The notes under the pieces were generated by a model. That model was given only the letters and a program-made list of their open reading frames with translations, did no database searches and was not told the DNA's origin. The position numbers and the translations under genes are program-made. From an uncultured Elusimicrobia bacterium (lineage in GTDB: Bacteria; Elusimicrobiota; Elusimicrobia; UBA1565; UBA9628), in the NCBI GenBank assembly GCA_903881545.1, contig CAIRTQ010000033.1, positions 1 to 64,000 of the forward strand: a DNA stretch of 64,000 nt, in the 5' to 3' direction. This document shows positions 17,071-55,750 of this stretch, piece by piece (the stretch's first letter is position 1; every line of letters starts with the position of its first letter).

Positions 17071-18027
17071 ATGACTCCTCTATTGCCGCGAAAATATCCT
17101 CCGTTCAAGGTCCACTGGAACTGGGAGTTGCTGTTGGCCTGCAACTATCGCTGTAGCTATTGTGGTGCGCACAAGGAAGGAGTGCCTTGTCTCGAACTGG
17201 ACATCGCTCAGTGGCGTGCGATCTGGGGGCGGATATTCGACCGATACGGCTGTTGCCAAGTCCGTTTTGCCGGTGGTGAGCCGACCATCTATCCGGGATT
17301 CATACCATTGGTCAGCATGCTTCTGGAGCGGCATACCGTGGACATCACGACGAACCTCAGTTTCGACATCGCCGAGTGGGTCGCCAAGGTCCCGGCTCAA
17401 GGGATCGCGATTTCGGGCAGCCTACATCCCGAGTTCATGGCGCCGGAGGAATTTTTGCGGCGCCTGCTGATGTTGCGCGAGCATGGCGGCCGCCTCATCT
17501 CGGCCTGCATCGTCGCTTATCCACCCCACCTCGGCCAGCTGGAGAGCACCAGGCTCCTCTTCGAGCGGAACCAGATTCTTTTCAAGATAATCCCGTTCAG
17601 CGGAGTCTACCAGGGCCGCCGCTATCCGGAGGCTTATACAGAGCAGGAGAAGGCCCTGCTACAGGCCCAGGTGGACGGCAGTAGCGACCCCCTGGGCAAG
17701 ACCTTGAACCGGCAGTGGCAGGATTATGCCAAGGCACCTGCCGAAGACAAGGACCGCAAAGACCTCAAAGGCCGGCTTTGCCATATGGGCGAACTCTACG
17801 CCAAGATACTGCCCGACGGCAAGGTCCTGCGCTGCTGCCATCCCGAGGTCGCCGCGCTCGGCCACATTACGGACGCGGACTTGAAGCTTTACGAAGAGCC
17901 CCAACCCTGCACTGTCGAAGTTTGCCCCTGCTGGAAGGCCATGGTGGCCGGACAGTACGAGGCGAAGGTGGATCAGCTTTGGCAGTCGCCGGAACACCCG
18001 CGTTATCCCTTGGCCCAGCCCACATGA
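17071..18027 (+). CDS. Radical SAM protein, short paralog family (C-terminal RCC...CPCWKAM subtype)
   Basis: NWELLLACNYRCSYCGAH CxxxCxxC; FAGGEPTIYPGF; TTNLSFDIAEW; C-terminal CHMGELYAKILPDGKVLRCCHPE...CPCWKAM. Confidence 0.88.
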   Translation: MTPLLPRKYPPFKVHWNWELLLACNYRCSYCGAHKEGVPCLELDIAQWRAIWGRIFDRYGCCQVRFAGGEPTIYPGFIPLVSMLLERHTVDITTNLSFDIAEWVAKVPAQGIAISGSLHPEFMAPEEFLRRLLMLREHGGRLISACIVAYPPHLGQLESTRLLFERNQILFKIIPFSGVYQGRRYPEAYTEQEKALLQAQVDGSSDPLGKTLNRQWQDYAKAPAEDKDRKDLKGRLCHMGELYAKILPDGKVLRCCHPEVAALGHITDADLKLYEEPQPCTVEVCPCWKAMVAGQYEAKVDQLWQSPEHPRYPLAQPT

Positions 18028-19406
18028 GCCCTCAGGAATTGGAACGGGAGATTCGCCCGGAAGAGAAGGCGGCGCTTCATGAGAAGCGCGCCAAAGAGCA
18101 TTACCTCCGGGGCGATTATCCGGCCACGGTCAAGGAATTGGGGCTTTGTCTGGAAACGGAGCGCGTGCCCGAGCCCAAGAACCTGAGGATGATGCTGTTG
18201 ATCCTACAGACGCATCGCCGCTTCGCGGACCTGGAATCGGCCGGCTCCATGCTTCGGCGCATGGAAAGCAAGTACGGAGGCAGCAACGATAAGTTTATCC
18301 GGAATATCATCCTCAACGAGAGGGAGATAACGGAGGGGGCGGTCGAACTGCGATCCTATCCGACGCGCCTGACCGTGCGGCCGACCAGCCGTTGCTCCGT
18401 GCGCTGCAACATGTGCACGTTCTGGAAGGAGCCGCCGTGGGACATGCCGCAGAGGACCTTGGATGAGGTGGTGGCCCTGTATCCCTATCTGGAGGACATC
18501 CTCTGGCAGGGCGGGGAAGTCTTCGAGATGAAGAGGGAGGTGTTCACCGACATCTTGTTGCGCGGGATCGACTATCCACACCTGCTACAGAACATCATCA
18601 CCAACGGCCTGGCCATCGACAAAGAATGGGCGGAAAATCTGGTGCGGACCAACATCCACATCAAATTCTCCATAGACGGGACCACTCCCGAGGTCTATGA
18701 GCGGATCCGCGTCAGGGCGAAGTTCGCGGACCTGTTGAGATCGGTCGATAATCTGAATGACGCGATGGCCAAGCACGGCAAGCGCATCGGGTTCTCTCTG
18801 CATATGGTCGTGCAGCGTCATAATTACCTGCAAATCGAGCAGATGCTGGAGTTCGCTAAGGAGCATCGGTTCGACGCGGTGGCCTTGAGCCCCGTCGAGG
18901 GCGATCTGTATCGGGCCATAGACATCTTCAACCATGGTGATAGGCAGATTTGGGACGCCATAGAACGGCAACGGGCGGCGGTCAGGAAGAAGGCCTTGGC
19001 CTATGGGATATATCTGGAAGACAATCTGCCGTTTCCGCCCGCAGCCGAAGAGCCAGCGCCCCCACGAGACCCAGCCCAGCCGGAAAAGAGATATCCGCTT
19101 TCGCCCATGACGATGGCGGAAAGTGCCGAATATGCGTCATCGCGGTTCTCCAGTTTCTGCTTGTCTCCGTGGAAGAATATGATCCTCCGCAACGGCGGCG
19201 GAGTCTTGCCGAATTGGCATTGCGGAGAGACTTACGTCGGCAATGTCGAAGAGCGCCCCCTGCTCGAGATATGGAATGGGGAGCCGATGCGGAATTTCCG
19301 CAGGGCCATCCGCGACCGGAAGTTCGGCGGCGTCTGCAGGGCCTACTGCCTTTCCGGCGCGTTGATGGAATCTTGGAAACACCATATGGAATGGTACTGG
19401 TCCTGA
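18024..19406 (+). CDS. SPASM-type radical SAM protein with short N-terminal TPR-like region
   Basis: Internal ATG at 18024 overlaps previous stop (ATGA); RPTSRCSVRCNMCTFW; WQGGEVF; FCLSPWKNMILRNGGGVLPNWHCGETYVGNVEERPLLEIWNGEPMRNFRRAI SPASM-like tail. Confidence 0.85.
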   Translation: MSPQELEREIRPEEKAALHEKRAKEHYLRGDYPATVKELGLCLETERVPEPKNLRMMLLILQTHRRFADLESAGSMLRRMESKYGGSNDKFIRNIILNEREITEGAVELRSYPTRLTVRPTSRCSVRCNMCTFWKEPPWDMPQRTLDEVVALYPYLEDILWQGGEVFEMKREVFTDILLRGIDYPHLLQNIITNGLAIDKEWAENLVRTNIHIKFSIDGTTPEVYERIRVRAKFADLLRSVDNLNDAMAKHGKRIGFSLHMVVQRHNYLQIEQMLEFAKEHRFDAVALSPVEGDLYRAIDIFNHGDRQIWDAIERQRAAVRKKALAYGIYLEDNLPFPPAAEEPAPPRDPAQPEKRYPLSPMTMAESAEYASSRFSSFCLSPWKNMILRNGGGVLPNWHCGETYVGNVEERPLLEIWNGEPMRNFRRAIRDRKFGGVCRAYCLSGALMESWKHHMEWYWS

Positions 19407-19582
19407 GTCCGAAGTCCCTGGATTCAGAATAAGGAGTCTGCCTCTTGGGCAATCACGGGTCGCGCGTGGTATGGCAGGAGTAGGTGGCGGGTGGATGCGA
19501 AGATAAGGTAAACTCAATTGTGGCAGTCGCCACAGACGCTAGTCTGGCGACATAAGATGCCGGCTTCCTCAGGCCAGCGAAA

Positions 19583-20542
19583 ATGATTCCAACCCAAAGC
19601 GCGCGCCTCGAAAAGGCAGATGGCCGGAGTTTGCTCCCGCCTTTCAAGGTCTTCTTTACTTGGGATCTCCAGTACTCCTGCAATTACCGATGCACTTATT
19701 GCTTGGTATTTGAGAGCCCCCAATGGGAGTCGGTGCTCGCCAAGAAAGACCGGACGGTCCCGGCGGAGCGCTGGATGGAGATTTGGGACGACATCTATGC
19801 GCGCTACGGCAGCACCCATATCCACTGCTCGGGGGGAGAGCCGTTCCATTATCCGCGTATCATCGATATCCTCGCCCATATCACCCCCAAGCACACTATG
19901 GAATGCGATACCAACCTCTCTTTTGACATCGCGGACTTCATTGGCCGTGTGAAGCCCGGCACATTCCGATTCTCGCCCGCCTTCCATCCTCAGTTCGCCG
20001 TTTTGGAACCCTACGTCGAGAAATGCCGCAGGTTGCGCGACGCGGGCTACGACCTTCAGGGTGTCAACTTCGTCTGTTGGCCGCCGCACCTCAAGCAAAT
20101 CCCAGATCTGAATAAGGCTTTCGACGGCATCGGCGTGGTCTTGACGCTGATGCCTTTCCGGGGCCGCTTCGAGGGCCGGGACTATCCGGATGCCTACTCG
20201 CCCGAGGAGCGGCGTTTCATCAACTCGCACAGCGGCAATCCGGTGCTGTCCGAGGACTACGGTTCGTGGTATCAGGGCGGCAATCAAGGCGGAGAGAACC
20301 GCACGCGACAGGCGGCGCTTTGCCGGGCCGGGCAGATGTATGCCAAGATCCATCCCGACGGGACTGCCCTGCGTTGCTGCTTCATAGACGACCGTGGTCG
20401 GATCGGCAATCTCATTGATGGGACCTTTCGGCTTTCCGATGAGCCGCGTCCGTGCGAGTTTTCCGCGTGTTCCTGCTGGAAATGCATGATCGTCGGCGAG
20501 GAAGACCGCTGGTTGCGGCACTGGCGGGGCGTAGCCGCATAA
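19583..20542 (+). CDS. Radical SAM protein, short paralog family (RCC...CSCWKCM subtype)
   Basis: FTWDLQYSCNYRCTYCLVF; CSGGEPFHYPRI; CRAGQMYAKIHPDGTALRCCF; CSCWKCMIVG. Confidence 0.88.
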   Translation: MIPTQSARLEKADGRSLLPPFKVFFTWDLQYSCNYRCTYCLVFESPQWESVLAKKDRTVPAERWMEIWDDIYARYGSTHIHCSGGEPFHYPRIIDILAHITPKHTMECDTNLSFDIADFIGRVKPGTFRFSPAFHPQFAVLEPYVEKCRRLRDAGYDLQGVNFVCWPPHLKQIPDLNKAFDGIGVVLTLMPFRGRFEGRDYPDAYSPEERRFINSHSGNPVLSEDYGSWYQGGNQGGENRTRQAALCRAGQMYAKIHPDGTALRCCFIDDRGRIGNLIDGTFRLSDEPRPCEFSACSCWKCMIVGEEDRWLRHWRGVAA

Positions 20543-20551
20543 GGTGTTGCG

Positions 20552-21055
20552 ATGCGCGTCTATTTGAGTTCCAGCTTCGCCCCCGCCGAGGAGCGCCTTC
20601 TGGTGCAACTGCAGGGCGCCGGCCGCCTTTTTGACATCGAGGTGACGATCGGGCGCCGTTTTTGGGGGTCTTTGCAGACCCTTCCGCAGGATGTCGCGCA
20701 GGCCATCATGGATTCCGAAGTCGCGGCTTTCTGGCTGCTGGAAGGGGGATCAAACCTGTCCTATGTCGACATGGAGGCGGGCTTCGTCCGTAATGTGCGC
20801 CCGCGGCTCCCCCTCTTGATCGTCGCTGACGAATCCATCCGACCCAGCGGCTGTCTGGAATGGCGCGATACGGTGTCTCTGCCGCGGGCGGAACCCTGGC
20901 TGTTTGCACAGAAGGTCTGGCAGGCGACGGCACGGGTGGAAGCCGCGCTCGGGTCAGACCGCGCCGGCCGGCTGCGGGGCTGGCTCCTGGCAGGCATCGG
21001 CCTGAGAACGACGCCGGCCGCCCCGGTCCAGTCCACTCCCGCGCATCGGAGCTAG
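20552..21055 (+). CDS. TIR-like / nucleotide-binding-fold small protein
   Basis: MRVYLSSSFAPAEERLLVQL... AIMDSEVAAFWLLEGGSNLSYVDMEAGFVRNVRPRLPLLIVADES resembles TIR strand A / SDxxxxxxS...E topology; eyeballed only. Confidence 0.45.
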   Translation: MRVYLSSSFAPAEERLLVQLQGAGRLFDIEVTIGRRFWGSLQTLPQDVAQAIMDSEVAAFWLLEGGSNLSYVDMEAGFVRNVRPRLPLLIVADESIRPSGCLEWRDTVSLPRAEPWLFAQKVWQATARVEAALGSDRAGRLRGWLLAGIGLRTTPAAPVQSTPAHRS

Positions 21056-21114
21056 GTGGGATGGTGGCAATTCCGACCACCGCGCCTATGATGCGGCGGC
21101 ATCAGTCCTAGTTC

Positions 21115-22776
21115 ATGCCTGTGAAACCAAAGGTCTTCTTCCTGCAGATGCCGGCCTGGGGCCGGGAGCCCAACCTGGCGATCGCCCAGCTTTGCGCCGT
21201 GGTCAGACGCGAAGGCTATGAAGCGGTGGTCATGGACCTCAACATGGAGTTGTATCGCCGCTTCGGAGTGGCGCAAGGCCAGCGCGATCTATGGGCGGCT
21301 GAAATTGACAATCTGTGGCGCCAGCGCGAGTTTTGTTCCCGCATCCTGGAACAGAACAGGTCGTGGATTGCGGCGGAGTTTTTGGACCACATCTGCCGCG
21401 CCGATCAGCCGGTGGTTTGTTTCCCGGTGACAGCACCCTCTCTTCCGGCTAGCTTTCTGCTGACGCGCTGGATCAAGGAGCTGCGCCCTGACGCCACCGT
21501 CGTTTTCGGAGGGTCCTATTTTACCGTCTGCCCGGAATCCATCGGCGGGGGGCTGTGGGAATGCGGGGTGGACGCCGTGGTCTCGGGGGACGGTGAGGCG
21601 ACCCTGCTGGAGATCCTGGCGCGGCGCCAGGAGGGACGGGATTGGGATGGGTGCCGCGGCCTCTGGTTCCGGAGCCGCGAGAAGGGAATCGTCTTCACCG
21701 GCGAGCGGCCGCCTGTCGACTTGAACGCCCTCCCCTTCGCCGACTTCTCCGGATTCGACGCAAGCCTCTATCCCACAAAGGCATCCTCCGAGACCGAGAG
21801 GTTGGGGGTGGTGGGAACATTCGACGACCTCTTGCTGATGGCCAGCCGCGGTTGCTTTAGGAAATGTTCCTTCTGCGGCCATTGGATGTCCGGGAAGGGA
21901 TTCCGCAGCATGAGCGGCCGCAGAACTTATGAAGAGATCGTCCATCAGAGGACGGTCAGGCCTGAGATACGCCCCGGCGACAGCCTCATTAAATTCTATG
22001 ACCTTATCGTGAACGGGGATATGCGGGCCTTGAATGAACTCTGCGACCTCCTGATCGCTGACCCGGCGCCGAAGCTTTTGTGGCAGGAATGCAATGTGGC
22101 GATACGCCCGGAAATGACCTACGAAGTCTGCCGGAAGCTTCATGCGGCAGGCTGCCGCCAGTTTATCATAGGCTTGGAATCCGGGTCGCAGAGGATGTTG
22201 GACCTCATGGGTAAAGGTCAGACGATCGCTCAGATGAAGGAAGTTCTCCGCAACGCGTCCCGGGCAGGACTCCAAGTGCGCGGAAACTTCATGTTCGGCC
22301 ATCCTGGAGAGACCGAGGAGGATTTCCAGAAGACTATGGAGTTCCTCAGGGAAATGCACCCGCACATTCATTTCATCTATCCCAGCTATACCATGACCCA
22401 TCTGGAAGGCCGGCTCCATAGCGAACCTGAGAAATGGGGGCTGGAACCCGGACAAGACGCGCACTTCTGGCGGTCTGCCGATGGGACTAACACCTATCCC
22501 ATCCGCCTGGAGCGCTACCAGCGGTTCGTGAGGGAAGCGCAAGCCCTGGGCACCGGCCTCGGCCATTGTCTGAATATGCCTGTGGAGGACCTCGTGGAAC
22601 TGAAGCTGGGGGAATATTATCAGTTCACGAAAGAATACGATCTGGCGCTCGCCCATTTTAAGCGACATCTGGCCGCGGGGCGGGGAAATTCCTATGTCTT
22701 GAGCCAAGTCCGGGCCTTGGAACTGCAAACGAGTGGGACAGCGGGGGGGGCGGAACAAGGCCCGGGATCGAAATGA
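21115..22776 (+). CDS. B12-binding domain radical SAM protein
   Basis: KVFFLQMPAWGREPNLAIAQLCAVVRREGYEAVVMDLNMELY; ASRGCFRKCSFCGHW; GLESGSQRMLDLMGKG; WRSADGTNTYPIRLERYQRF. Confidence 0.9.
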   Translation: MPVKPKVFFLQMPAWGREPNLAIAQLCAVVRREGYEAVVMDLNMELYRRFGVAQGQRDLWAAEIDNLWRQREFCSRILEQNRSWIAAEFLDHICRADQPVVCFPVTAPSLPASFLLTRWIKELRPDATVVFGGSYFTVCPESIGGGLWECGVDAVVSGDGEATLLEILARRQEGRDWDGCRGLWFRSREKGIVFTGERPPVDLNALPFADFSGFDASLYPTKASSETERLGVVGTFDDLLLMASRGCFRKCSFCGHWMSGKGFRSMSGRRTYEEIVHQRTVRPEIRPGDSLIKFYDLIVNGDMRALNELCDLLIADPAPKLLWQECNVAIRPEMTYEVCRKLHAAGCRQFIIGLESGSQRMLDLMGKGQTIAQMKEVLRNASRAGLQVRGNFMFGHPGETEEDFQKTMEFLREMHPHIHFIYPSYTMTHLEGRLHSEPEKWGLEPGQDAHFWRSADGTNTYPIRLERYQRFVREAQALGTGLGHCLNMPVEDLVELKLGEYYQFTKEYDLALAHFKRHLAAGRGNSYVLSQVRALELQTSGTAGGAEQGPGSK

Positions 22777-22789
22777 GACTGTTAGGGAG

Positions 22790-23752
22790 ATGATGATGGC
22801 CGCGGCGCGCTGGGATCACTCTCGCCGGATGTGGCAGGGCGCTTCTTTTACATGGGATCTTTGGTACGGTTGCGACTATCACTGTCCTTACTGTTGGTTC
22901 GAGATGGATCCGGTTTGGGACCTGCTGGCCAAGGAGCACGAGGGCATTCCCATCGAGCGCTGGCTGCAAGCCTGGCGGCGCATCGGCGAGCGGCACGGCA
23001 CCGCGTCCATAGATGTCGTCGGTGGAGAGCCTTTGCGCTATCCGGGAGTCCTGGACCTCTTGGGCGGACTGGCGCAGTGGCATCGCCTCGAGGTCGTCAC
23101 GAACTTGAGCGTTCCGCTGGAGTTCCTGGAGGATCTGACCGCCCGAGTCTCCCCCGAGCGCATGCATCTTTCGGGCAGTTTCCATCATGAGTCTGCCGAC
23201 TGGGAGGATTTTTTGCGCAAGATTGTGTTCCTGAAATCCAGGGGATATGAGCCTGAGGTCGCGATGGTCGCGTGGCCTCCTCATATGGGTTTGATTCAAG
23301 AGAAGAAGGCGATTCTGGGGCGGATGCATATCCCGGCCAGCATCCTCGTCTTCCAAGGCGTCTTTCAAGGACGGGATTATCCCCGTTCCTACACTGACGC
23401 CGAGCGTGAGCAGTTAGGGGGATTGGTCTCGCCGCGCGAGCGGGAGTACCGCATGCATGAGCGGCGGACTTTGGCCAGGCCTTGTGGGGCGGGGCACGTC
23501 CACGCCCACGTGCGGGCCAATGGGGACGTCTTGCGCTGCGGCAAGGACAGTCAGTATTCGCGCCGAATGGGGAACCTGCTGGAGGCCGACTTCGCGCTTC
23601 ATTCTTCGCCCCAGCCTTGCCCCTACCCATATTGTAATGCCTGCGGGGAGCATGTATATCTTTGGGAGGATTGGACGAAGAAAGCGGCCTCGACAGGATG
23701 GCCGCTAGTGGAGGATTCTGGTTCGCACCATGCCGCGGCCCGCAGCGATTGA
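22790..23752 (+). CDS. Radical SAM protein, short paralog family (RCG subtype, divergent tail)
   Basis: FTWDLWYGCDYHCPYCWFEMD; VVGGEPLRYPGV; CGAGHVHAHVRANGDVLRCGKD; YPYCNACGEHVYL. Start set at MMMAAARWD. Confidence 0.86.
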   Translation: MMMAAARWDHSRRMWQGASFTWDLWYGCDYHCPYCWFEMDPVWDLLAKEHEGIPIERWLQAWRRIGERHGTASIDVVGGEPLRYPGVLDLLGGLAQWHRLEVVTNLSVPLEFLEDLTARVSPERMHLSGSFHHESADWEDFLRKIVFLKSRGYEPEVAMVAWPPHMGLIQEKKAILGRMHIPASILVFQGVFQGRDYPRSYTDAEREQLGGLVSPREREYRMHERRTLARPCGAGHVHAHVRANGDVLRCGKDSQYSRRMGNLLEADFALHSSPQPCPYPYCNACGEHVYLWEDWTKKAASTGWPLVEDSGSHHAAARSD

Positions 23753-23764
23753 CGGCCGCCGGCA

Positions 23765-25048
23765 TTGCCGGCCCTTATGACCACGGAGACCTCTGGCTTC
23801 GGGCTCGGGTGGCCGGCCCTGGCGCGGGAGACGCTATTGAAGAGCTCGCGCGTGTTCTGCATGCTTCCATGGACACACATGAGCGTCTATCCAGACGGCC
23901 AGACCTACCCTTGCTGCAACGCCTCGGGATGGCCCTTGGGAAGCGTCGGCGAAACTTCGCTGCAGGGGTTGTGGAATTCTGAACTCCTGAGACGTCTAAG
24001 GCTGGACATGCTCGCGGGGCGCGAGAGCGCTGCATGCACGAGGTGCTACGAAGCGGAACTCTGCGGCATGGGCACCTTGAGAACTTGGGCCAATGCGGAA
24101 CTCGCGCAGCACTTCGGACTCGTGGGGCAAACTCGGCCGGAGGGGTCCGTGGACCGTTTGAATCTGCCCTATTTAGATATCCGTTTCTCTAACCTCTGCA
24201 ATCTGCGATGCCGGACCTGCCGGCCGGAACTCAGCAGCGCTTGGCAGAAGGATGCCCACTTGTTGGGGGGAGTGGCGGTTCCGGCCCGGTCCGCGATATC
24301 GGCTCAAGCTCGCGCGGCGCTGATGGAACAAGTCCGGGCGCTCCTGCCGCAGGCTGAGATCATCTATTTCGCGGGTGGCGAGCCGCTGGTGATGGAAGAG
24401 CATCTGGAAATCCTGGAAGCTTTGATCGCACAGAAGCAGTTTGGGGTCCGTCTGCAATACAACACGAATCTTTCCATCTCGCATTTCAGAGGCGTCGATA
24501 TTATGAAATTGTGGGACCGGTTCGAGACGGTCGTAATCCAGGCGAGTTTGGACGGCATGGGACGGCGAGGTGAGTACCTACGCAAGGGCTTGCTTTGGGC
24601 CGATGTGGTCTCCAACCGCGAACGCATGCGTGAGGTCTGCCCGCGCGCCGCGTTCATCGTCCTGGCCACGGTCAGTGCCATGAACGCTTGGCATCTGCCC
24701 GACTTCCACGCGCAATGGCTGCGCCAGGGCTATGTGGGGCGCGGGCAGTTTCAATTGAACCCGCTTTTTACTCCGGAGGAGTACTGCGTGCAAGTCCTGC
24801 CCCCGCGGCTTAAGCAAGCCGTGATCCGGAAATATGAGGCGCATGTCGATACCGTGGCGCAGGCTTCCGGGGATGCTGCGAGCTTCGCCGGCGCCGTGAG
24901 ATTCATGCGCGCCCGGGATCGATCGGTTTTGCTCCCGAGATTCCGCGATCTGACGCTGAAGCTGGATGCGGCGCGCGGCGAGCGTTTCGCGGAGGTTTTC
25001 CCGGAATGTGCCGAACTTATCGTCGATTGTTTGAGAAGGAGCGAATAA
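23765..25048 (+). CDS. N-terminal-twitch/SPASM-like radical SAM protein
   Basis: N-term VFCMLPWTHMSVYPDGQTYPCCNASGWPLGSVGETSLQGLWNSELLRRLRLDMLAGRESAACTRCYEAE precedes core LPYLDIRFSNLCNLRCRTCRPELSSAW; FAGGEPLVMEEH. Confidence 0.85.
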   Translation: MPALMTTETSGFGLGWPALARETLLKSSRVFCMLPWTHMSVYPDGQTYPCCNASGWPLGSVGETSLQGLWNSELLRRLRLDMLAGRESAACTRCYEAELCGMGTLRTWANAELAQHFGLVGQTRPEGSVDRLNLPYLDIRFSNLCNLRCRTCRPELSSAWQKDAHLLGGVAVPARSAISAQARAALMEQVRALLPQAEIIYFAGGEPLVMEEHLEILEALIAQKQFGVRLQYNTNLSISHFRGVDIMKLWDRFETVVIQASLDGMGRRGEYLRKGLLWADVVSNRERMREVCPRAAFIVLATVSAMNAWHLPDFHAQWLRQGYVGRGQFQLNPLFTPEEYCVQVLPPRLKQAVIRKYEAHVDTVAQASGDAASFAGAVRFMRARDRSVLLPRFRDLTLKLDAARGERFAEVFPECAELIVDCLRRSE

Positions 25049-25152
25049 GCTAAAGTACCGACGGCCTGGCGGATGGGAGCGAGGGCGCGAGGGAGTGGGG
25101 GGGGCTCGATGAAATGCGACGCCAGTTATCCGGGAGGGGCGGCCCGTAGCCG

Positions 25153-26070: not shown

Positions 26071-26164
26071 GGTGCTGCGGGTTATCCGTCCAGCCGCAGC
26101 AGCCACAGCACTCGGCCGCTGGGACTGGAGATGACCCATCATAGAATCATCCGGGAACAAGCCT

Positions 26165-27940: not shown

Positions 27941-27952
27941 GATGCCGCAGCA

Positions 27953-28807: not shown

Positions 28808-28824
28808 GCCAATCTTGGGGCCCA

Positions 28825-30938: not shown

Positions 30939-31132
30939 TGAGGGAGTCGAATTGCTGCGGCCGAGTGGAGCGCCTAGTCAGCCTCCGAATTTTTAGATTG
31001 TAGGAATTCCAGAGGGGAGTTGTCCATGCTTGCCTGCTCGCGAATGTCAGGCCTCGGGCGCGTCGCATCGGGTCGCAGTGCTTTGGTATAATCAAACGCG
31101 GACGAACCGTATTGCCCGCCCAATAGCTCCAA

Positions 31133-35059: not shown

Positions 35060-35063
35060 AACC

Positions 35064-37995: not shown

Positions 37996-38008
37996 CAAGG
38001 GAGACCAA

Positions 38009-46609: not shown

Positions 46610-46628
46610 GGATCGGGCACTGCCCCAG

Positions 46629-47777
46629 CTACGGCCGGCGCAGGGCTCTATGGTGCTCCTGGACGATTTGTCCGTCGCACTTGTGCCGATGATCCACGTG
46701 CGCTTCCCAATCATTGATGCTGGTGGCATTATGGCGTTGACAGGTCCCTAGGCAGCCGCCACCAGCCCGCAAGCTGCGTCGGATGGCGCGGTAGGCGGGT
46801 CCGTTCCAAATTTCCGCGAAGCTCTTATCGGCCAGCGATTCCTTGAAAGATCCAATCAAATCGCAGGGTAGTATCCTGCCTTCGGGATCCACCACCACCT
46901 GGTGCCACGGCTCGTTGCACCGGGCCGGCGTCCGGGCCGGTGCCGGCCCTTCACCGAACTTTTGCGGGAGGCTGATCTCCATGCCCACCTCCTGTGCCAC
47001 GCTGCGCGCCTCGTCTATGGCGCGGTTGGCCAAGTCCTGCTTGAAGTAGAGCGAAAGGTATTTCTGTGCTGCTTCGCAGATGAAGAAGTAGGTGGCCAGT
47101 ACCCTGTCCGCCCCCAGTTCCTTGGCCAAGCGCACGAAATCCGGCAGCTTGTCCGCATTGAGCGTGGTCATCACGAATTTGAAGTGCACCCGTACTTGGT
47201 CCGTGCCTTGGCGCATCTCCATGAGTTGTTTGATGTTCTTCATGACTCGCTCAAAGGACCAGTACCTCATCATGAGTTCGTGCGTCGACTGGTCGGGCGC
47301 GTGGAGGGACAGCTGGAGCGTGTAGCGGCTTGCCGAGTTCACTATCAGGTCGCATTTCTCATGCGTGAGATACGAGGCGTTGGTGGCGATGCGTTTCTCT
47401 ACATGCGGGAATCGGCCATTGAGATAGCCCAAGAGCGCGGGCGCCTCGGATAGCCCCAATACCTCGCCCGAACCAGAGAAGGTCAGCGTCGCCGCGCGTT
47501 GGAGGACCGGCGTCATCGATGAGTCGAATCGAGCCAGCCAGTCGTCCAACCGGAACGACTCGAAGCCGTCGCCTTGGGAGCAGAACACGCAGCCAGCGTT
47601 GCAGGGCGCATGGATCTGAAGACGCACTGTCTGCGGCGTGCTGGCCAAGATGATGCGGCCGGCTTCGTGCTCCTGCCGGTTGAGATCCACATTCTCCGTT
47701 TGGAGCTGTTCGAGCCGGCGACGCCGCCGGCCGGCGGCGGGCTCGGGCGATCGGGCGGCGGAGGGCATGGCCTTCAT
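46629..47777 (-). CDS. SPASM-type radical SAM protein with SGSGE motif
   Basis: LQIHAPCNAGCVFCSQGDGFESF; TFSGSGEVLGLSEAP; CNEPWHQVVVDPEGRILPCDLIGSFKESLADKSFAEIWNGPAYRAIRRSLRAGGGCLGTCQRHN. Start trimmed from the track ORF. Confidence 0.86.
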   Translation of the reverse strand: MKAMPSAARSPEPAAGRRRRRLEQLQTENVDLNRQEHEAGRIILASTPQTVRLQIHAPCNAGCVFCSQGDGFESFRLDDWLARFDSSMTPVLQRAATLTFSGSGEVLGLSEAPALLGYLNGRFPHVEKRIATNASYLTHEKCDLIVNSASRYTLQLSLHAPDQSTHELMMRYWSFERVMKNIKQLMEMRQGTDQVRVHFKFVMTTLNADKLPDFVRLAKELGADRVLATYFFICEAAQKYLSLYFKQDLANRAIDEARSVAQEVGMEISLPQKFGEGPAPARTPARCNEPWHQVVVDPEGRILPCDLIGSFKESLADKSFAEIWNGPAYRAIRRSLRAGGGCLGTCQRHNATSINDWEAHVDHRHKCDGQIVQEHHRALRRP

Positions 47778-49741
47778 CGCGCGCAGAGCGGGGCGGGTTG
47801 AGCCGCTTCGCCCCCGGCAGTCTCGGATTTGACCAGGCTCATCGCCAGGCGCAGACGTTTGGCCAGCAGGTGCAGAGTGTTCGGGTCCGTCGCCCGTTCG
47901 CCGGCCCAGAAGATGTCGAAATGATCCCCACTCCATTCGATGCGGGCCTTTTCCCCGGTCATGGCTTTGAGGAACGAGGCTGCTCGAAACAGGAAACGCT
48001 CGAGGCTCTGCGGCGCTTGACGGGAGCCCGCCAAGAACTCATCCCAGGTTAAGCCCGCGTCCAAGCGGCTTCGGAGTCCCTCCCAGACCGCCGCTGGGTC
48101 TGCCTTGCCGGCGGCCGCAATCCGGTCGGCCTTGGCCAGGGCCCGGGCGGCGTTCCGGAAGCTCTCCAGATGCGGGAGAGCCCGGATTAGATGCTTGAGC
48201 GTCGGCCCATGGTAAAGGTCCAACTCCAGGTATTCCAAGTAATTCTGCAGGGCCGCTAAGGGCCGGCCTGCGAAATGGTGGTACGCCGCTAGGTTGGAGA
48301 GATGATCCAGGTCAAGGGCGCCGTTGACCCCCTTGTAAGCGTCTATGCCCAGAGTGATGGCCAGGGACCGGAACTTTTTGTAGCGTTCCAAACGCACCGG
48401 ATAGGTATTGGTCCCATCCTGGGACTCCCAGTAGAGATTGTGCGTTGACTCTTCGGAGCGCTGGCGAATTCCCAACTCCTCCTGGTGGTCGATCAGATAG
48501 CTGTGCGCCTCCAGGCTTGTGAAGGTGGCGCTGGCGTAGACCCGGTCCAAGTTGCTTCGGTTGCGGCGCAGGAAATCCAGAGTCATCTGCGCGTCTTCCT
48601 CCGTCTCCCCGGGAAAGCCGAACATGAAGTTGCCGGTCACGATGATGCCGGCATCATGGGTGTCCCGCAACACCCGTTCGGCCACGTCGGGAGAGTAGTT
48701 TTTGTTCATGGCCTTGAGCACGCGCTCCGAGCCGCTCTCGATTCCGTAGATGATGTCGTGGCAGTTGGCGGCGCGTAGATCTTTCAGGACTTCCAGCGTC
48801 ATCTCCGGGCGTATGACCGCGTTGATCTTCCATCCGATCAGATCGTTCTTCCACCGGTCTTCGGCCACGGCTGCGCTTACGAGCCGACTAAACTTCTGCA
48901 GGGCCCGGACGTCGCCGTTGGCTGTAATGTCGTAGAACTCCCTATGGCGACGGCTAGGGAACAGGCGCAGGTTGTGCATGACCTCCGCGAAGATGCGGTC
49001 TCCGCCCATATGCGCATAGCCGGGCCAGAAGGAGTGCGCGCTGCAGAACCGGCACTGCCAGACGCACCCTCGGCTGGCCGCGATCGGGATCCGCTCCGGG
49101 TCGGTATAGAGCTCCATGGGAAATCCCGTGAAGTCCGCGAATGGGATATCGTCTAGATTGCGTACCGGCACAGCCGCGCCGGAGGTGAACGGTGCTCCGT
49201 CGCGCCAAACCCAGGCCCCCGGCAGCGGTTCTAGCTCGCCCGTGCTGTCAAAGCGCTTCAATATCTGGGGGAATACCACGTCGCCCGCGCCTTGCACCAC
49301 CATGTCCACGCAGGGCTCTCCGAGTAGGGCTCTGATCTTGTTACCAAAATAGAAATAGGGCCCCCCAAGGATAATCTTGACCTTGGGATCGGCGGCCTTG
49401 AGGCGCCGCGCCAGCTCCAGCGCGGCCAGATGGGAGCCGCTTTGCACAGAAATGCCAATGACGCGGGCGCCGGTCTTGAGGATGTCCTCCAAGAAGCGCT
49501 CCACCTGCTGAGAATTATCCTGGAAGAAGGTGGCAACGAACGCCGGCTGGTTCCAGAAATGGAACTGCTCCCAGACCCAGAGGCTTTCATATTTCTTCAC
49601 CCGTTCCTTCCAGAGCAGGATGTTGAGGTCAAACACCGCCGGCTCGAAACCAGCCGCGCGAGCGCAACCCGCCAATTGGGCTAAGCCCAAGGGTGGGTCT
49701 GTGATGCCCCAGACTGGAGGCTGGATCAAGGCGACTTTCAT
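47774..49741 (-). CDS. B12-binding domain radical SAM protein with C-terminal extension
   Basis: MKVALIQPPVWGITDPPLGLAQLAGCARAAGFEPAVFDLN; ASRGCVWQCRFCSAHSFW; GIESGSERVLKAMNK; WESQDGTNTYPVRLERYKKF. Confidence 0.9.
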   Translation of the reverse strand: MKVALIQPPVWGITDPPLGLAQLAGCARAAGFEPAVFDLNILLWKERVKKYESLWVWEQFHFWNQPAFVATFFQDNSQQVERFLEDILKTGARVIGISVQSGSHLAALELARRLKAADPKVKIILGGPYFYFGNKIRALLGEPCVDMVVQGAGDVVFPQILKRFDSTGELEPLPGAWVWRDGAPFTSGAAVPVRNLDDIPFADFTGFPMELYTDPERIPIAASRGCVWQCRFCSAHSFWPGYAHMGGDRIFAEVMHNLRLFPSRRHREFYDITANGDVRALQKFSRLVSAAVAEDRWKNDLIGWKINAVIRPEMTLEVLKDLRAANCHDIIYGIESGSERVLKAMNKNYSPDVAERVLRDTHDAGIIVTGNFMFGFPGETEEDAQMTLDFLRRNRSNLDRVYASATFTSLEAHSYLIDHQEELGIRQRSEESTHNLYWESQDGTNTYPVRLERYKKFRSLAITLGIDAYKGVNGALDLDHLSNLAAYHHFAGRPLAALQNYLEYLELDLYHGPTLKHLIRALPHLESFRNAARALAKADRIAAAGKADPAAVWEGLRSRLDAGLTWDEFLAGSRQAPQSLERFLFRAASFLKAMTGEKARIEWSGDHFDIFWAGERATDPNTLHLLAKRLRLAMSLVKSETAGGEAAQPAPLCAR

Positions 49742-51096
49742 GAGTAGCTCCCGTGCGGCGGAAATTTAAAATCGGCTCGGCCGATGGACTGGCAGCGTTC
49801 GCAAACATGATCAGAATCGGCCTTCACTCCGACTTGGCCGCGGGCGAACCGGCGGACATGGCGCCGCGCGGCGCGGTAGCGCGAGCCGTTCCAGAGGGCG
49901 CGCCAGCCTTTTCGGGTGAACACGCCGAAATCGTCCGACTGGTCCTCTACACTACAGCAGGGCGAAGCCGAGCCGTCTGGATTGAGCGCCAGTCCCGCCC
50001 AGGGCCACTTGCACAGAGGCCGGGGCCCCGACGGAGCCTCCTGCTGATCACGGCCGCAGCTCTCGCTGCGCTCGGCTAGGTGCGCCGTTCTTTTGAGCGC
50101 GAAACCCAGGTCTGCTGGACGCCGGGTTCGGCGCAAGACCTCGAGCCAATAGGATGCGCGCCGCAAGTGGCGGGCCTGAAAGCGCCGCGCATGGAGTACG
50201 ACTGAGGGCGCGCCCGGCTTTACATGCGTGCATTCGCGGGCTCGGCTAAGCTCTTCTGCAGGTGGCTCAGCGGCGGGCATAGGATAGATCTGGTAGCGCG
50301 GGTCGCGCGCCATCCATTCCCAAAGATAGCCCTTTTCGTTGGGTAGATACGGAGCCACCAGGCTCGTTTGGTCCGCCCCGCAGGCGCGCGCGAACTCCTC
50401 GACCCGATCGGCTTCATGCTCGTTGTGCCGGAAGACCAGAAACTGCCAGATGATCCAGGGCTTCTTGCACCCCAGCGCCTGGCGCTTCTCCACTAATGTG
50501 CGCAGGTTCCGCAAAACCCGGTCGAAATCTCCGCCTGCTCGGTAGCGTCCGTAGGTTTCGGGGGAGAGTCCATCCACGGATAGGCTCAGGATGTCCAAGC
50601 CCGAGCGGACCAGGCGGTCGATGGTCTCTTCGCTGGCGTCGTTAAAATTGGCGTCCAGCTTGACTTCGATGCCGTAGCTCTTGGTCAGCGCGATCATCTC
50701 CGGAAGCTGTTTATTGAGTAAGGACTCGCCCCAGTTCATGATGTCCAGGTGGATGGCGGATGGTCCGACTTCTTTTAGGATGGCCTTGAAGAAATTTATA
50801 TCCATGGTGCCCTTGTTGCGGACGCCGCGGTTGGCTCCGGTCGGACAGAAAGGGCAATGGAGTTGGCACAGGTTCGATGGATCCAAGGTGAGCCAATAGG
50901 GCCGGCCGCCCCAGAGGCTCTGGCTGCCCCGTGCCATCAGGAATTCCACCCAAAGATAGTTGCCTAGTTTGAGGTAGCGCCCTTGCCGCCAGAGGTTGCT
51001 CGACACGGCCCAGTCGCTCAAGGGGCAGAGTCGCGCTTGGAGCCGGCGCCACCGGCTGGGATTCTTCTGCGTCCGCGTCATATCCAAGGCCACCAT
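49738..51096 (-). CDS. SPASM-type radical SAM protein
   Basis: LTLDPSNLCQLHCPFCPTGANRG; MNWGESLLNKQL; CKWPWAGLALNPDGSASPCCSVEDQSDDFGVFTRKGWRALWNGSRYRAARRHV. Confidence 0.86.
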   Translation of the reverse strand: MVALDMTRTQKNPSRWRRLQARLCPLSDWAVSSNLWRQGRYLKLGNYLWVEFLMARGSQSLWGGRPYWLTLDPSNLCQLHCPFCPTGANRGVRNKGTMDINFFKAILKEVGPSAIHLDIMNWGESLLNKQLPEMIALTKSYGIEVKLDANFNDASEETIDRLVRSGLDILSLSVDGLSPETYGRYRAGGDFDRVLRNLRTLVEKRQALGCKKPWIIWQFLVFRHNEHEADRVEEFARACGADQTSLVAPYLPNEKGYLWEWMARDPRYQIYPMPAAEPPAEELSRARECTHVKPGAPSVVLHARRFQARHLRRASYWLEVLRRTRRPADLGFALKRTAHLAERSESCGRDQQEAPSGPRPLCKWPWAGLALNPDGSASPCCSVEDQSDDFGVFTRKGWRALWNGSRYRAARRHVRRFARGQVGVKADSDHVCERCQSIGRADFKFPPHGSYS

Positions 51097-51100
51097 GATA

Positions 51101-51841
51101 TCATAGCGTCGACGCGTTCAGGGCGTCGATGCGGGCCTGGTTCAGCCTCGTGGGAGGGATGGATGAGACGCAATCCGTCATCCTGACCCAGCCGTGGTCC
51201 AAGGCGCACACTGCTGACTCCGTTTGCCCTTCGAACCGGCAACCCGTCAAGTCGACCAAGGACCAGCCCGAGGCGGAGCAGCCTTGCTCGCCGCCGCGCA
51301 GGAGGCTGCGTTCCAAACGCACCTGGGAGCCTTCACAACAGATCGCCCCCCAACGCTCCGCCGCGATCTCGCCGGAGATGAAGCGCACGCGCGCCAGGCC
51401 CATGGCCCAGAGGCCCTTTTCGCTGTCCCGCATCAAGCAGCCCACGCAATCGATCCGGGCATCGTCGAGAGCCTGTAGCGAAGTCTCGCGCGCCCCAGCG
51501 ATGCGGACCTGCCGCAGCCGGCCGCGCCCTTGGCCCAGGAAGCAGAGGCCGCCCCAAGGTTCTTCCGGCGTGCCCAAAGAGATCGAAGCCCCAACAGCAC
51601 CCAATATCTCAAGCCGGCCCTGCACCACGATGTCGCAGAGCTCGCGGCGGGTCGTCTCGATCGGCCAACCTTCTGGCGCGCTGCGGAATACCGCGCATGA
51701 CCAAGCTGGCTTCGGAGCGAACCGCACTTTCGTCCCGGCGTGGATGCGTAACAACTTCCCCTGCGGGATTAGGAGGTCTCCATCCACGAGGACTTCTCCA
51801 GACCATTCCGTGTCGGCGGTGAGTGCCCCGTGCCAGCCCAT
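51101..51841 (-). CDS. Right-handed beta-helix repeat protein
   Basis: GALTADTEWSGEVLVDGDLLIPQGKLLRIHAGTKVRFAPK...PWGGLCFLGQGRGRLRQVRIAGARETSLQALDDARIDCVGCLMRDSEKGLWAMGLARVRF: short repetitive rungs. Confidence 0.7.
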   Translation of the reverse strand: MGWHGALTADTEWSGEVLVDGDLLIPQGKLLRIHAGTKVRFAPKPAWSCAVFRSAPEGWPIETTRRELCDIVVQGRLEILGAVGASISLGTPEEPWGGLCFLGQGRGRLRQVRIAGARETSLQALDDARIDCVGCLMRDSEKGLWAMGLARVRFISGEIAAERWGAICCEGSQVRLERSLLRGGEQGCSASGWSLVDLTGCRFEGQTESAVCALDHGWVRMTDCVSSIPPTRLNQARIDALNASTL

Positions 51842-54800
51842 TTAGGCCTCCACCGCCAGCTTGCGGGCCGCCGCCAGGATGGCGGCGCGAGCTTGGGGGC
51901 GGTTGGTGATATGGCAAGATAAGTCATCCACGTTGTAGCCCGCGTAGCGTGCGCAGCGGCGGCACCAGGGATGCGGCTTGCCTTGCGCCATGCTGCAGCG
52001 CAGGCTGCGATAGAAAGGGGAATTCCATATGGCCCCGATTTCCGAATCTTTGATGTTCCCGATGTGCTCGCCCCAGCGACAGCAAGGCAGCACCGAGCCC
52101 TGAAGTTCCACATAGATGTGCTGCCAGGGCTCAGTGCAGAGCGACTGCGCGGCCGCGCCGCCGCCAAACAGGGGGGGCAGGTCCACGCGGAAGGGCCGGT
52201 CCGGGGCGCGTTGGCGCAATTGATCTGCCGTCCGGGCAGCTGTCTGCAGGGCCGCGTTGGCCTGGCCCTGATGGAAGAAGCAGGAGAGCGGGAGTTGCTT
52301 GGGCGTGAAGACCTCCACATGCAGGCCGCGCACGCTTTGCGCGCCCAAGTCCCAGGCCAGACGGATGAAGTCGGGGAGGTCCGCAATGTTGCGGCTATTG
52401 AGCACGTTGACGAGTTCCAGGTGCAGCCGGCCGCTCGCTTGGCTGCGGTCGCGCCATTTGGATAAGCTCCGCAAGTTGTCGATAATCTCCTGGAAACGGC
52501 CTTTGAGACCGGTCAGTTCTTGATGCAGGCCAGCGCGGGAAGAGTGCAAGGAGACTTGAACCGCGTAGCGTCCCTGCAACAGGCGTTCCACCACCGAGGG
52601 CCGCAGGGGTGTTCCGTTGGTGGTCAATATTTTTTCGGTCTCGGGCAAGGATCTGTTGATGTAATCAAGGAACGCTTCGGCTTTCGGCATGAGCAAGAGC
52701 TCCCCGAAGCCGGTAAAGGTGATCTTCTGCGCGTTGCGCAGGAAAGAGCCCATCCGGACCTCGAAGAAATCTCGGTAGGTCTCCAAGGTGAATCGGGGAT
52801 AATCGCCTTCGGGACAGAAGATGCAGCGGGCGTTGCAGGCCTGGTGCGCGCCGAGGGTCACCAGCACCGGCGTCGAGCGCAGGCGCTGCTCCCCCGCCGC
52901 TGTTTCGCGCTGGTTGAGGACCATGTTGAATCCGCGCGGAGAGAACTCTTGCGGCGCCGGCGGAAACGCCGGCCCGCGCGCTGGCCGGCCGGCCTTATCG
53001 TAGCAACGGCGCAGGGCTTCCCGGAGCGTTTCATCTTGGGATTCTAGGCGCCAGGAGCGGCGATAGCAGAGGATGGCGCGGGGCAGGTCCGCCTCCCTCT
53101 CGTAGTACGCGCCCAGCAGAAGCCACTTGTCCGGCTTGCTACGGAGCACTCCTGAAGTCTCAGGCAGGCCCAAGGCCAGGGCCAGGCGGCAAAATTCTTC
53201 ATAGCGGCGGAAGCGTTCCGGATAGTCGTTGCGACCGCCATCTGATTTCCAGTAAAGGTGATGCTCCGCTCCGGTGATGCCAAACTCCTTCGGATGGTTG
53301 TAAAGCCGCGTGTTCTTGTCGATGACGCAGAACGATTGGCTGGCCAGGACCGAATCCACGAACGGCCGCGCTCGCTTGAGAAGGTCTAGCGTCCGGCTGA
53401 AGTCCCGCTTGGTCTCACCCGGGATGCCGAACATGACGTTGATCTGCGCCTTGATCCCTGCCGCGTGAGCGGCGCGCAATGCGCGCAATGCCTGGGCGTT
53501 GGTGAAGCGCTTGTTCATGGCCGCGCGCACTTTGGGCGATCCGGATTCGATGCCAAAGCCTAGCCAGCGGCAGCCCGCGCGCGCCATCTTGGCCAGCAGC
53601 CGCTCATCCATGCCGGGCACCACGATGGCCTGGCCTTCCCAGGTCACGGGCAGGCCTTGCGCGATGACCAGGTCGCAGAAGCGCTCGAGCTCGCGCAATC
53701 TGCCGTTGAGCAATGAGCCGATGAAATAGAAGTGGTTGACCTGCGGATATAGCTGCATCTGATGGCTGATCTCAGCGAAGATTCGTTCCCCGCTCATGGA
53801 GCGGAATCGGGTCCAGAACTGCCACTCGCTGCAAAAATGGCAGGAGCGGGCGCAGCCGCGGCTGTCCATGATCTCCAGGCGCCGCGGGTTCCGGTAGCGG
53901 CCCTCGCGCATTTGCGCAGTGAAGTCGGAGTAGTCCGGGAAGGGTAGGCGGTCCAGGTCCATGATGGGTGCGCGGTCGCCGCCGTCCACGATGCCGGAAG
54001 GCCCGCGGGCCACCAGTCCGGGCAGTCCCAAAATGGATTTCCCAGCGCGAAGCTGGTCCAATAGCTCGCGCAAGGTCTCCTCACCTTCGCCGACGGCTAC
54101 CGCGTCCACGCGCGGGTCAAGCGCTAGGTCTTGGCCCCGTTGTTCCCGCGCGCAGCGCGGCCCGCCGAAGACCACCAGCCGGGACGGATCGGCGTGCTTG
54201 ATCCGCCCCGCGATTTCGAGGCTGGCGAGTACCGAAGTCGTGTGGGTCGTGAATCCGATCACCTTGGCGCCGCTGGCCAGGATGCGGTTGACGCAAGAGT
54301 TCACCGCGCTGTCCTGGGATTCCATGAGACGCCCCACCAAGGCGGGATTCTCCCAAAATGAATAGAGGTCTTTGTCGTCCCAGACGGCCCGTTGCCCGGC
54401 CGCGGCATGATAGAGCTCGTTGTTGAGATCGAAGCAGGCAGCCTCGTGGCCATTCTGCCGCGCATAGGCGGCTAAGGCGGCCAGGGAGAAAGGGGGGCAT
54501 TCCTGGCCCCAGCCCGGACACTGCACCAAGGCGACTTGGGCGGTACGCTTCTTCGGCGTGGGCGCGGCAACGGCTGAATCGTCTGATGCCACACGGAGGG
54601 GAGTATCCTTCTTGCAGCCTAAGGCCACGATCCGGTCCAGGACTGGATTGGCGGTACAGAGCAGCCAGCAGTGGCAGCGGCCGCGCGCGACATTGTCCCT
54701 TTCCTGGCGCGCTCGAGGCGACTGCCAGACTTCGTCGAACGGGGCCTCACGCACACTGCCGACGGTACGTTGTTTGTTGACCGGGCAGAAGAACAGGCTG

Positions 54801-55750
54801 CCCTCCGGGTCCAGCATGGCGTAGCGCTGACCAGCCAGGCAATCCGGGAAGAACCGTCGCGGCATCCGAATGTACTCCTTGAGGTAATGCCAGTAGAGGA
54901 TCCGGCTCAACAGCCCGACGGATTCGGATTCGCGTCCTTGCAGCAGACGGGGCAAGATGCCTTCGCGCCGGCATATGTCGTCCATGACCAGATCAATCTG
55001 GCCGGTGATCGCCGCGATCTGTGCCGGTTTCCAGAGGAAGGCCGGAGCCTCGGGAACCCCCGTATGGTTGACCGCCATCTGCGCCCCGAACCAAACGCCC
55101 TGCTCCGTCGCGAAGCGATAGGCCGGCCATAGTTGCCGATAGTTGTGTGGAGTGATGGTTAAATTGAAACTGAATGTAATGTCAGGGAATTCTCGACGCA
55201 ACATTCCCATCGATTCGACCAGCCCTGCGAAGGCCCCGGAGCGGCCGCGGATCAGGTCATGCGCGCCCCCCACGCCGTCCAAGGAAGACCCCAGCCATAG
55301 CCGTTGAACTCCGGCCGCGCGCAGCTGCGTCAAGCGGCGGCGCAACAGCGTGGGATCGCCGAAATGGGAAAGCACTCCCAGGGAAGCCTTGGGGAAGCGC
55401 CGGCAGAGCAGGGCCGCGATCTCAGGCAGGTCCTGGCGCAGGCAGGGTTCGCCTCCGGTCAGGACGATCGTCTCTACGCCGTCCAGCGTCCTTGCCTCGC
55501 CGAGGATGTGCTCCAATTCGGCGGCACCCAATTCTCGGCCGGTCGCCGCAGGTTCGGCGCGATGCCGGCGCCAGTGATGGCACATGAGGCAGCGCATATC
55601 GCAGCGCCGGGTCAGTTCCAGATGCAGTTCTCGGATGGGAGATGGGATGCTCCCCTCGTCTTTCAGCCGCGCCTCGCCGCGCCGGGCGATTTCCGCCAAG
55701 AGGCTCTCGGTCCAGCGCAGTGCGTCCAAGGCCAAGGCGCGTCGGCTCAT
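51842..55750 (-). CDS. Triple-module fusion: rSAM/SPASM + B12-binding rSAM + rSAM/SPASM (about 1302 aa)
   Basis: Three CxxxCxxC motifs in one open frame: LELTRRCDMRCLMCHHW; DSRGCARSCHFCSEWQFW (after VALVQCPGWGQECPPFSLAALAAYARQNGHEAACFDLN); GAHQACNARCIFCPEGD; terminal SPASM CTEPWQHIYVELQGSVLPCCRWGEHIGNIKDSEIGAIWNSPFYRSLRCSM. Start at ATG 55750 overlaps upstream stop. Confidence 0.85.
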   Translation of the reverse strand: MSRRALALDALRWTESLLAEIARRGEARLKDEGSIPSPIRELHLELTRRCDMRCLMCHHWRRHRAEPAATGRELGAAELEHILGEARTLDGVETIVLTGGEPCLRQDLPEIAALLCRRFPKASLGVLSHFGDPTLLRRRLTQLRAAGVQRLWLGSSLDGVGGAHDLIRGRSGAFAGLVESMGMLRREFPDITFSFNLTITPHNYRQLWPAYRFATEQGVWFGAQMAVNHTGVPEAPAFLWKPAQIAAITGQIDLVMDDICRREGILPRLLQGRESESVGLLSRILYWHYLKEYIRMPRRFFPDCLAGQRYAMLDPEGSLFFCPVNKQRTVGSVREAPFDEVWQSPRARQERDNVARGRCHCWLLCTANPVLDRIVALGCKKDTPLRVASDDSAVAAPTPKKRTAQVALVQCPGWGQECPPFSLAALAAYARQNGHEAACFDLNNELYHAAAGQRAVWDDKDLYSFWENPALVGRLMESQDSAVNSCVNRILASGAKVIGFTTHTTSVLASLEIAGRIKHADPSRLVVFGGPRCAREQRGQDLALDPRVDAVAVGEGEETLRELLDQLRAGKSILGLPGLVARGPSGIVDGGDRAPIMDLDRLPFPDYSDFTAQMREGRYRNPRRLEIMDSRGCARSCHFCSEWQFWTRFRSMSGERIFAEISHQMQLYPQVNHFYFIGSLLNGRLRELERFCDLVIAQGLPVTWEGQAIVVPGMDERLLAKMARAGCRWLGFGIESGSPKVRAAMNKRFTNAQALRALRAAHAAGIKAQINVMFGIPGETKRDFSRTLDLLKRARPFVDSVLASQSFCVIDKNTRLYNHPKEFGITGAEHHLYWKSDGGRNDYPERFRRYEEFCRLALALGLPETSGVLRSKPDKWLLLGAYYEREADLPRAILCYRRSWRLESQDETLREALRRCYDKAGRPARGPAFPPAPQEFSPRGFNMVLNQRETAAGEQRLRSTPVLVTLGAHQACNARCIFCPEGDYPRFTLETYRDFFEVRMGSFLRNAQKITFTGFGELLLMPKAEAFLDYINRSLPETEKILTTNGTPLRPSVVERLLQGRYAVQVSLHSSRAGLHQELTGLKGRFQEIIDNLRSLSKWRDRSQASGRLHLELVNVLNSRNIADLPDFIRLAWDLGAQSVRGLHVEVFTPKQLPLSCFFHQGQANAALQTAARTADQLRQRAPDRPFRVDLPPLFGGGAAAQSLCTEPWQHIYVELQGSVLPCCRWGEHIGNIKDSEIGAIWNSPFYRSLRCSMAQGKPHPWCRRCARYAGYNVDDLSCHITNRPQARAAILAAARKLAVEA

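Follow-up and report, generated by a model that had tools for sequence, protein, structure and literature searches.

The window analysed here is a stretch of 64,000 nucleotides from an uncultured Elusimicrobia bacterium (contig CAIRTQ010000033.1 of assembly GCA_903881545.1), and between 17 and 56 kb it carries an island of radical S-adenosylmethionine (rSAM) genes that an earlier note, made from the letters alone, had described as a local expansion. Judging from their sequences, the rSAMs of the island are old paralogs that were retained or acquired as a set. The enzyme families to which they belong, the conserved gene order, the age of their divergence and the conservation of a peptide gene next to PqqD fusions are all apparent at this level. 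We take the island for an undescribed multi-rSAM system of the type that matures ribosomally synthesized and post-translationally modified peptides (RiPPs), and such maturation is its most likely job, at what we judge to be an even chance. The idea of an undescribed multi-step modification system, raised before, gains support from a gene order kept across families and phyla and from the PqqD domains, peptidase, glycosyltransferases and precursor-like peptides nearby.

A PF04055 profile search over the window's own genome (G000; 2.94 Mb, 158 contigs, 93% complete) gave 150 matches, many of them in other arrays. Of these cores, 29 fall in the window. One is at 11423 and the other 28 occupy 26 open reading frames (ORFs) from 17137 to 55618, which is exactly the count of the earlier note with its outlier at 10.8 kb. 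At the rate found in the genome outside the window only 1.6 cores would be expected per 38.7 kb, which excludes chance. By their CxxxCxxC motif and PF04055 score the island cores belong to the radical SAM superfamily: 27/28 exceed the cut-off of 29.5 bits, and the core at 34247 (g22) stays below it with 27.5 bits, yet in the alignment g22 is an evident homologue of the other short rSAM copies. Overlaps between neighbours, which had also been pointed out, amount to 11 same-strand pairs that abut or share 4 nt. Since the window opens with 2.7 kb that read as a ribosomal-protein region, the island is chromosomal.

In a tree of 132 domains all 12 short rSAM copies of the window were nearest to a copy from another genome, and tree placement of the five B12-binding and nine SPASM-type domains had the same outcome. 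Because 26/26 placed domains are thus closer to other genomes than to their paralogs in the window, the island is not a recent local expansion, and this part of the earlier description has to be given up. The local gene density, and a further array family in other parts of the genome, would fit recent tandem duplication of genes that share no pathway, or a faulty assembly; the former is ruled out by the trees, and both are contradicted by the syntenic island of the same-genus genome G002, so that we find this explanation scarcely credible. Misassembly, named beforehand as a possible objection, is excluded since G002 shares the gene order including a three-core fusion gene (g37). The synteny with G002 extends gene by gene over 46.6-60.5 kb of the window. 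As the fusion is kept there (1307 aa) and split in G010 (386 aa + 966 aa), we accept it as real and consider cooperation of its three parts probable. Gene order is conserved in G002, G010, G013, G030, G180 and G276. A contig scan with three short copies found the short family in 29/294 Elusimicrobiota genomes and in Omnitrophota, and the clusters in which it occurs there hold as many as 20 rSAM genes within 50 kb.

The island looks like two related, anciently diverged multi-rSAM systems that lie beside and within each other. The first comprises the minus-strand genes g41 to g33 and g18 to g16 together with g07 to g11, and its nearest relatives are mostly Elusimicrobiota islands such as those of G002, G010, G013 and G021. 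The second is the plus-strand block g19 to g28 (31.1-42.0 kb), which splits the minus-strand string, with g33 on one side and g18 on the other. For g27 and g28, its B12 enzymes, and for several of its short copies the nearest relatives are in Omnitrophota, where a single protein combines g21/g25-like and g26-like domains and precedes g27-like and g28-like enzymes. Part of the rSAM density may be due to this stacking of two related systems. The two SGSGE-type SPASM genes, g17 and g33, are 57% identical; they flank the plus-strand block, which seems to be inserted in the minus-strand string.

Profile searches with Pfam and NCBIfam models together with the alignment also bore out the five architectures reported for the island. 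Its 28 cores are made up of 12 short rSAMs, three SPASM proteins with WQGGEVF and two with SGSGE, two with an N-terminal twitch, five B12-binding rSAMs (including the middle part of g37), two further SPASM-type genes (g31 and g35) and two fusion ends. The short proteins of ~300 aa have a C-terminus of the auxiliary-cluster type, and 12/12 copies keep CxxxCxxC and five cysteines that form a twitch-like pattern at the C-terminus. These copies have 29-48% identity to the sequence in the first row of the alignment. The AlphaFold2 model of short copy g25 is confident (mean pLDDT 85, pTM 0.83), and its best match in a PDB fold search is the peptide maturase SkfB, followed by BlsE, SuiB and anSME. 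NF038073 (STM4011) is the best NCBIfam model for the short rSAMs and aligns over most of their length, but the three copies scanned reach 64.9-82.8 bits against a cut-off of 200 and fall outside this family. STM4011 has neighbours unlike the genes of this island. None of the curated families tested gives the short family a score that reaches its cut-off. Likewise, g11 remains outside the RiPP rSAM C-methyltransferases of TIGR03975 (133.4 bits, cut-off 281.85). Both g13 and g15 are members of the twitch rSAM family NF033640 (cut-off 170 bits; scores in Table 1), from which g15 differs by a C-terminal tetratricopeptide repeat (TPR) region.

Metalloenzyme-maturase models are among the weak best matches of several SPASM proteins. 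Together with the extensive rSAM suite and the same phylum, they recall a tetrapyrrole or metallocofactor pathway like the nitrogenase-paralog/rSAM clusters reportedly described in Elusimicrobia by Meheust et al. 2020. We disfavour such a pathway as highly improbable: the island contig carries no nitrogenase-like gene, and rSAMs of contig C98, on which all four PF00148 matches lie, reach at most 37 bits against the families of the window. A nitrogenase-like cluster was rejected on the location of these matches. On C98 the four matches are accompanied by rSAMs and a PqqD.

The candidate precursor PEP1 is a Lys-rich gene of 32 codons with a YxKPxL motif, located 12 nt downstream of g42 and equipped with a good ribosome-binding site; among the small ORFs read in the gaps of the island only PEP1 stood out. 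In G133 and G111 it is conserved next to the same fusion of a family 2 glycosyltransferase (GT2) and a PqqD domain, and codon differences among the homologs are concentrated at third positions. A profile search of 294 genomes returned G000, G111 and G133 at E ~1e-17, with no further match at E under 0.008. The cassette of G111 reads GT2-PqqD, PEP1, GT2, B12-rSAM, B12-rSAM, PqqD, signal peptidase, short rSAM, and that of G133 GT2-PqqD, PEP1, PqqD, B12-rSAM, GT2, three B12-rSAMs. Class-2 peptides share a YxKPxLTxHG motif and, in most members, a C-terminal Tyr. In G002 such a gene adjoins HprK and a short rSAM, in G006, another genome of the same genus, it adjoins a short-rSAM fragment, and in G014 and G030 it is located on the island contig; members are likewise present in genomes that lack the short family. 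Strong matches are enriched in genomes with this family (class 1 3/3, class 2 5/8). No class-2 precursor was found in G000 (best E 0.29), and no precursor beside PqqD in G010, G013, G015, G021, G057 and G118. In Omnitrophota, a Cys-rich peptide with YxKPxL (MKKTKARYEKPKLARVK..., G300:C63, L155:4312-4476, minus strand) has five rSAMs as neighbours, and the same stretch also carries a PqqD; this is probably another rSAM RiPP cassette.

The partners of the rSAMs within the window are the ABC-2 exporter g03 and g04, the HprK-like g05, the glycosyltransferases g30, g32, g39, g42 and g43, and g41. The PqqD domain mentioned in the earlier note is present in g42 (44.7 bits, PF05402 cut-off 23.4) but lies outside the island proper, at 61.3 kb, and is fused to a glycosyltransferase. 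A second GT2-PqqD fusion follows just past the window (C33:64015), and discrete PqqD genes occur in G111, G133, G180 and G276. In G180 and G276 a PqqD, a gene that reads as nucleotidyltransferase-like and a signal-peptidase-beta-helix gene head the conserved core. PqqD was found in 26/29 genomes with the short family and in 84/265 without it (Fisher p 1.2e-9, a value inflated by shared ancestry). For g05, TIGR04355 gave 16.9 bits against a cut-off of 200 with the P-loop present, and a PDB sequence search gave no match. For g41, TIGR02228 gave 37.3 bits against 51.85, and its Ser, His and Asp boxes are present. Between peptidase domain and beta-helix, g41 has a linker of amphipathic unit repeats (RDRIIDACxALRDAYRFLRDR...).

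This glycosyltransferase-rich setting is also what speaks for the main rival explanation, in which a surface glycan or a lipid-linked saccharide is what the rSAMs remodel, and peptide, PqqD and kinase belong to a small RiPP cassette of their own that shares the polysaccharide locus by coincidence. The islands repeatedly contain glycosyltransferases (GT2, GT4-like and membrane types), ABC-2 exporters and SGNH/GDSL hydrolases with TPR, as well as methyltransferases, the fold relatives of the short family include the sugar enzymes BlsE, AbmM and DesII, and clusters for linear polyphosphorylated peptides (LPPs) and paeninodin themselves sit within capsule loci. On the other hand, the top fold match is a peptide maturase, and G111 unites a short rSAM, two B12-rSAMs, PqqD, peptidase and peptide in one compact string. 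We therefore regard a glycan pathway as a serious but rather unlikely alternative.

Returning to RiPP maturation, we would put the chances that the rSAMs act on PEP1 at about equal, and from the gene content we infer the following order of steps and product. The PqqD-type recognition domain would bind PEP1 via its YxKPxL leader, and the core would be rebuilt by the rSAMs, with oxidative or cross-linking steps by the SPASM and twitch enzymes and methylation or similar steps by the B12-rSAMs. The neighbouring glycosyltransferases might then glycosylate the modified core, the signal-peptidase domain of g41 would cut off the leader, and the finished product would be exported. Alternatively, the peptide could give rise to a small redox cofactor resembling pyrroloquinoline quinone (PQQ) or mycofactocin with one step per rSAM. 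PqqD, SPASM rSAMs and an MftF-like GT2 (TIGR03965, 158.9 bits) would agree with this, as would the C-terminal Tyr of most class-2 peptides, because PQQ and mycofactocin derive from a Tyr. However, the MftF score fails to reach the cut-off of 280, PEP1 ends in a residue other than Tyr, and no dedicated dehydrogenase family was identified within the island, which makes a cofactor improbable.

Several observations weigh against RiPP maturation. A recognition domain was not detected in the scanned rSAMs, and 26 rSAM genes seem far too many for a precursor of 32 residues. The scores of g41 and g05 are under the curated cut-offs, and g05 is 46 kb away from PEP1. The association of PqqD with the short family is confounded by common ancestry, and at the threshold used no PqqD was found in G066 and one Omnitrophota genome. 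Both G111 and G133 have their large island on a different contig from the PEP1 cassette, and G002, syntenic for the first system, is without g42 and PEP1 and has a class-2 peptide instead. Finally, no precursor was within reach in the islands of G010, G021, G057, G066 and Omnitrophota.

Known rSAM RiPP and cofactor loci contain one to a few rSAMs. Ten to twenty-six distinct rSAMs in fixed order together with precursor candidates would amount to an unusually long radical-chemistry pathway and a supply of new enzyme chemistry, the short family is large and conserved, and the peptide genes make the relation between rSAMs and peptide testable in laboratory hosts. More tentatively, the islands may represent a new class of ribosomal peptide, or a peptide-derived cofactor, defined by a conserved set of at least ten distinct rSAMs with YxxPxL recruitment of the lasso/LPP type and common to Elusimicrobiota and Omnitrophota, and one chromosome may run two such lines.

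Table 1. Genes of the rSAM island and its flanks (positions in the window)
Feature	Position	Strand	Basis
g03, ABC transporter ATPase	12367..13173	-	PF00005
g04, ABC-2 permease	13186..13959	-	PF01061
g05, HprK-like, P-loop PSGGGKS, SDD motif	13956..15011	-	weak TIGR04355; homologs in G002, G133, G066 islands
g07, short rSAM (S family)	17071..18027	+	PF04055, alignment; orthologs G002, G010, G021
g08, SPASM rSAM WQGGEVF, TPR-like N-terminus	18024..19406	+	PF04055+PF13186; nearest G018/G010/G021
g09, short rSAM	19583..20542	+	PF04055, alignment, tree
g10, 167-aa protein, conserved in G010, G021 islands	20552..21055	+	no Pfam/NCBIfam match
g11, B12-binding rSAM	21115..22776	+	PF04055+PF02310
g12, short rSAM	22790..23752	+	PF04055, alignment, tree
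g13, N-twitch rSAM	23777..25048	+	NF033640 356.5 bits
g14, short rSAM	25189..26070	+	PF04055, alignment, tree
g15, N-twitch rSAM, C-terminal TPR	26192..27940	+	NF033640 337.3 bits; TPR match
g16, short rSAM	27953..28906	-	PF04055, alignment, tree
g17, SPASM rSAM SGSGE	28825..29958	-	profile match; identity to g33
g18, short rSAM	29955..30938	-	PF04055, alignment, tree
g19, SPASM rSAM WQGGEVF, first of second-system block	31133..32269	+	profile match, tree
g20, short rSAM	32351..33316	+	PF04055, alignment, tree
g21, short rSAM	33318..34157	+	PF04055; nearest relative Omnitrophota
g22, short rSAM, under PF04055 cut-off	34154..35059	+	alignment, tree
g23, short rSAM, start uncertain	34917..36002	+	PF04055, alignment, tree
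g24, SPASM rSAM WQGGEVF	35906..37072	+	PF04055, tree
g25, short rSAM	37141..37995	+	AlphaFold2 model; PDB fold search
g26, short rSAM	37982..39085	+	tree; g21/g25-like + g26-like domains fused in Omnitrophota
g27, B12-binding rSAM	39120..40505	+	PF04055; nearest relative Omnitrophota
g28, B12-binding rSAM	40502..41989	+	PF04055; nearest relative Omnitrophota
g30, GT2 glycosyltransferase	43599..44393	+	PF00535
g31, SPASM-type rSAM	44390..45538	+	GT2-g31 pair kept in G030, G180, G276
g32, GT2 glycosyltransferase	45539..46609	+	PF00535
g33, SPASM rSAM SGSGE	46629..47777	-	profile match, tree
g34, B12-binding rSAM	47774..49741	-	profile match
g35, SPASM rSAM	49738..51096	-	profile match
g36, related to g41 beta-helix part; kept beside g35/g37	51101..51841	-	sequence comparison, synteny
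g37, three-core fusion SPASM - B12-rSAM - SPASM	51842..55750	-	Pfam; same fusion G002, split G010
g38, glycosyltransferase-like	55747..56949	-	no Pfam match; syntenic with G002
g39, GT4-like glycosyltransferase	56903..58153	-	sequence reading; synteny G002, G030, G180, G276
g41, archaeal-type signal-peptidase domain + right-handed beta-helix	58150..60480	-	TIGR02228; PF13229; Ser/His/Asp boxes
151-aa ORF between PEP1 and g41	60656..61111	-	no Pfam/NCBIfam match
PEP1, candidate RiPP precursor peptide MKKKPEPKKIYKKPILKKFKLTTKLGVSTMFV	61185..61283	-	conserved beside same fusion in G133, G111; coding pattern
g42, GT2 glycosyltransferase + C-terminal PqqD	61296..62483	-	PF00535 114 bits, PF05402
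g43, GT2 glycosyltransferase	62577..63974	-	PF00535

Elsewhere in G000, a second rSAM expansion of ~35 tandem genes (~350-1115 aa) is spread over contigs C22, C126, C39, C62, C135, C2, C31, C117 and C109 (L043-L052). Most of these genes combine N-terminal TPR arrays with an N-twitch rSAM; g13 and g15 have relatives there, C135 carries a short-family rSAM, and several contigs end within arrays. A small family adjoins short rSAMs in the islands of G002, G010, G014, G021 and G013 (e.g. L027:15118-15783). It looks like a metallo-beta-lactamase fold in G010, is shortened in the others and was not found in the window.

Among known systems, the Elusimicrobia nitrogenase-paralog/rSAM clusters share the phylum and the many rSAMs with the island, which is without nitrogenase-like genes. 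PQQ and mycofactocin have in common with it a PqqD-type chaperone with a SPASM rSAM and an MftF-like GT2, whereas the island scores are under the equivalog cut-offs and its 26 rSAM genes compare with one rSAM in these pathways. Lasso peptides of the paeninodin type share the YxxPxL leader motif and the PqqD-like B1, and their HprK-like kinase has a putative counterpart in g05; the island differs by its many rSAMs, and a lasso macrolactam synthase and B2 protease were not among the scanned window genes. In the LPP RiPPs of Bacillota, a YxxPx[L/V] leader is recognised by a PqqD-type RiPP recognition element (RRE), and the loci encode an archaeal-type signal peptidase as leader peptidase, an HprK-like kinase, a nucleoside triphosphate transferase and a transporter in a glycosyltransferase-rich setting; the term radical SAM is absent from the text of that report (PMC13381572). 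The island shares with them the YxxPxL-type leader, a PqqD-type RRE (fused in g42, discrete in the four genomes named above), an exporter and the glycosyltransferases around it, and has putative counterparts of the signal peptidase (g41) and of the HprK-like kinase (g05). It is, however, not a member of the LPP family, because PEP1 has YxxPxL alone rather than the full leader YxxPxVLxHQxIxFETxxS and the transporter is of the ABC-2 type (PF01061) instead of MsbA-like. Further differences are the host, which is not of the Bacillota, the occurrence of the RRE in fusion with GT2 and of the peptidase domain in fusion with a beta-helix, and the many rSAMs. By analogy, the island resembles LPP and lasso recruitment coupled to a large rSAM suite.

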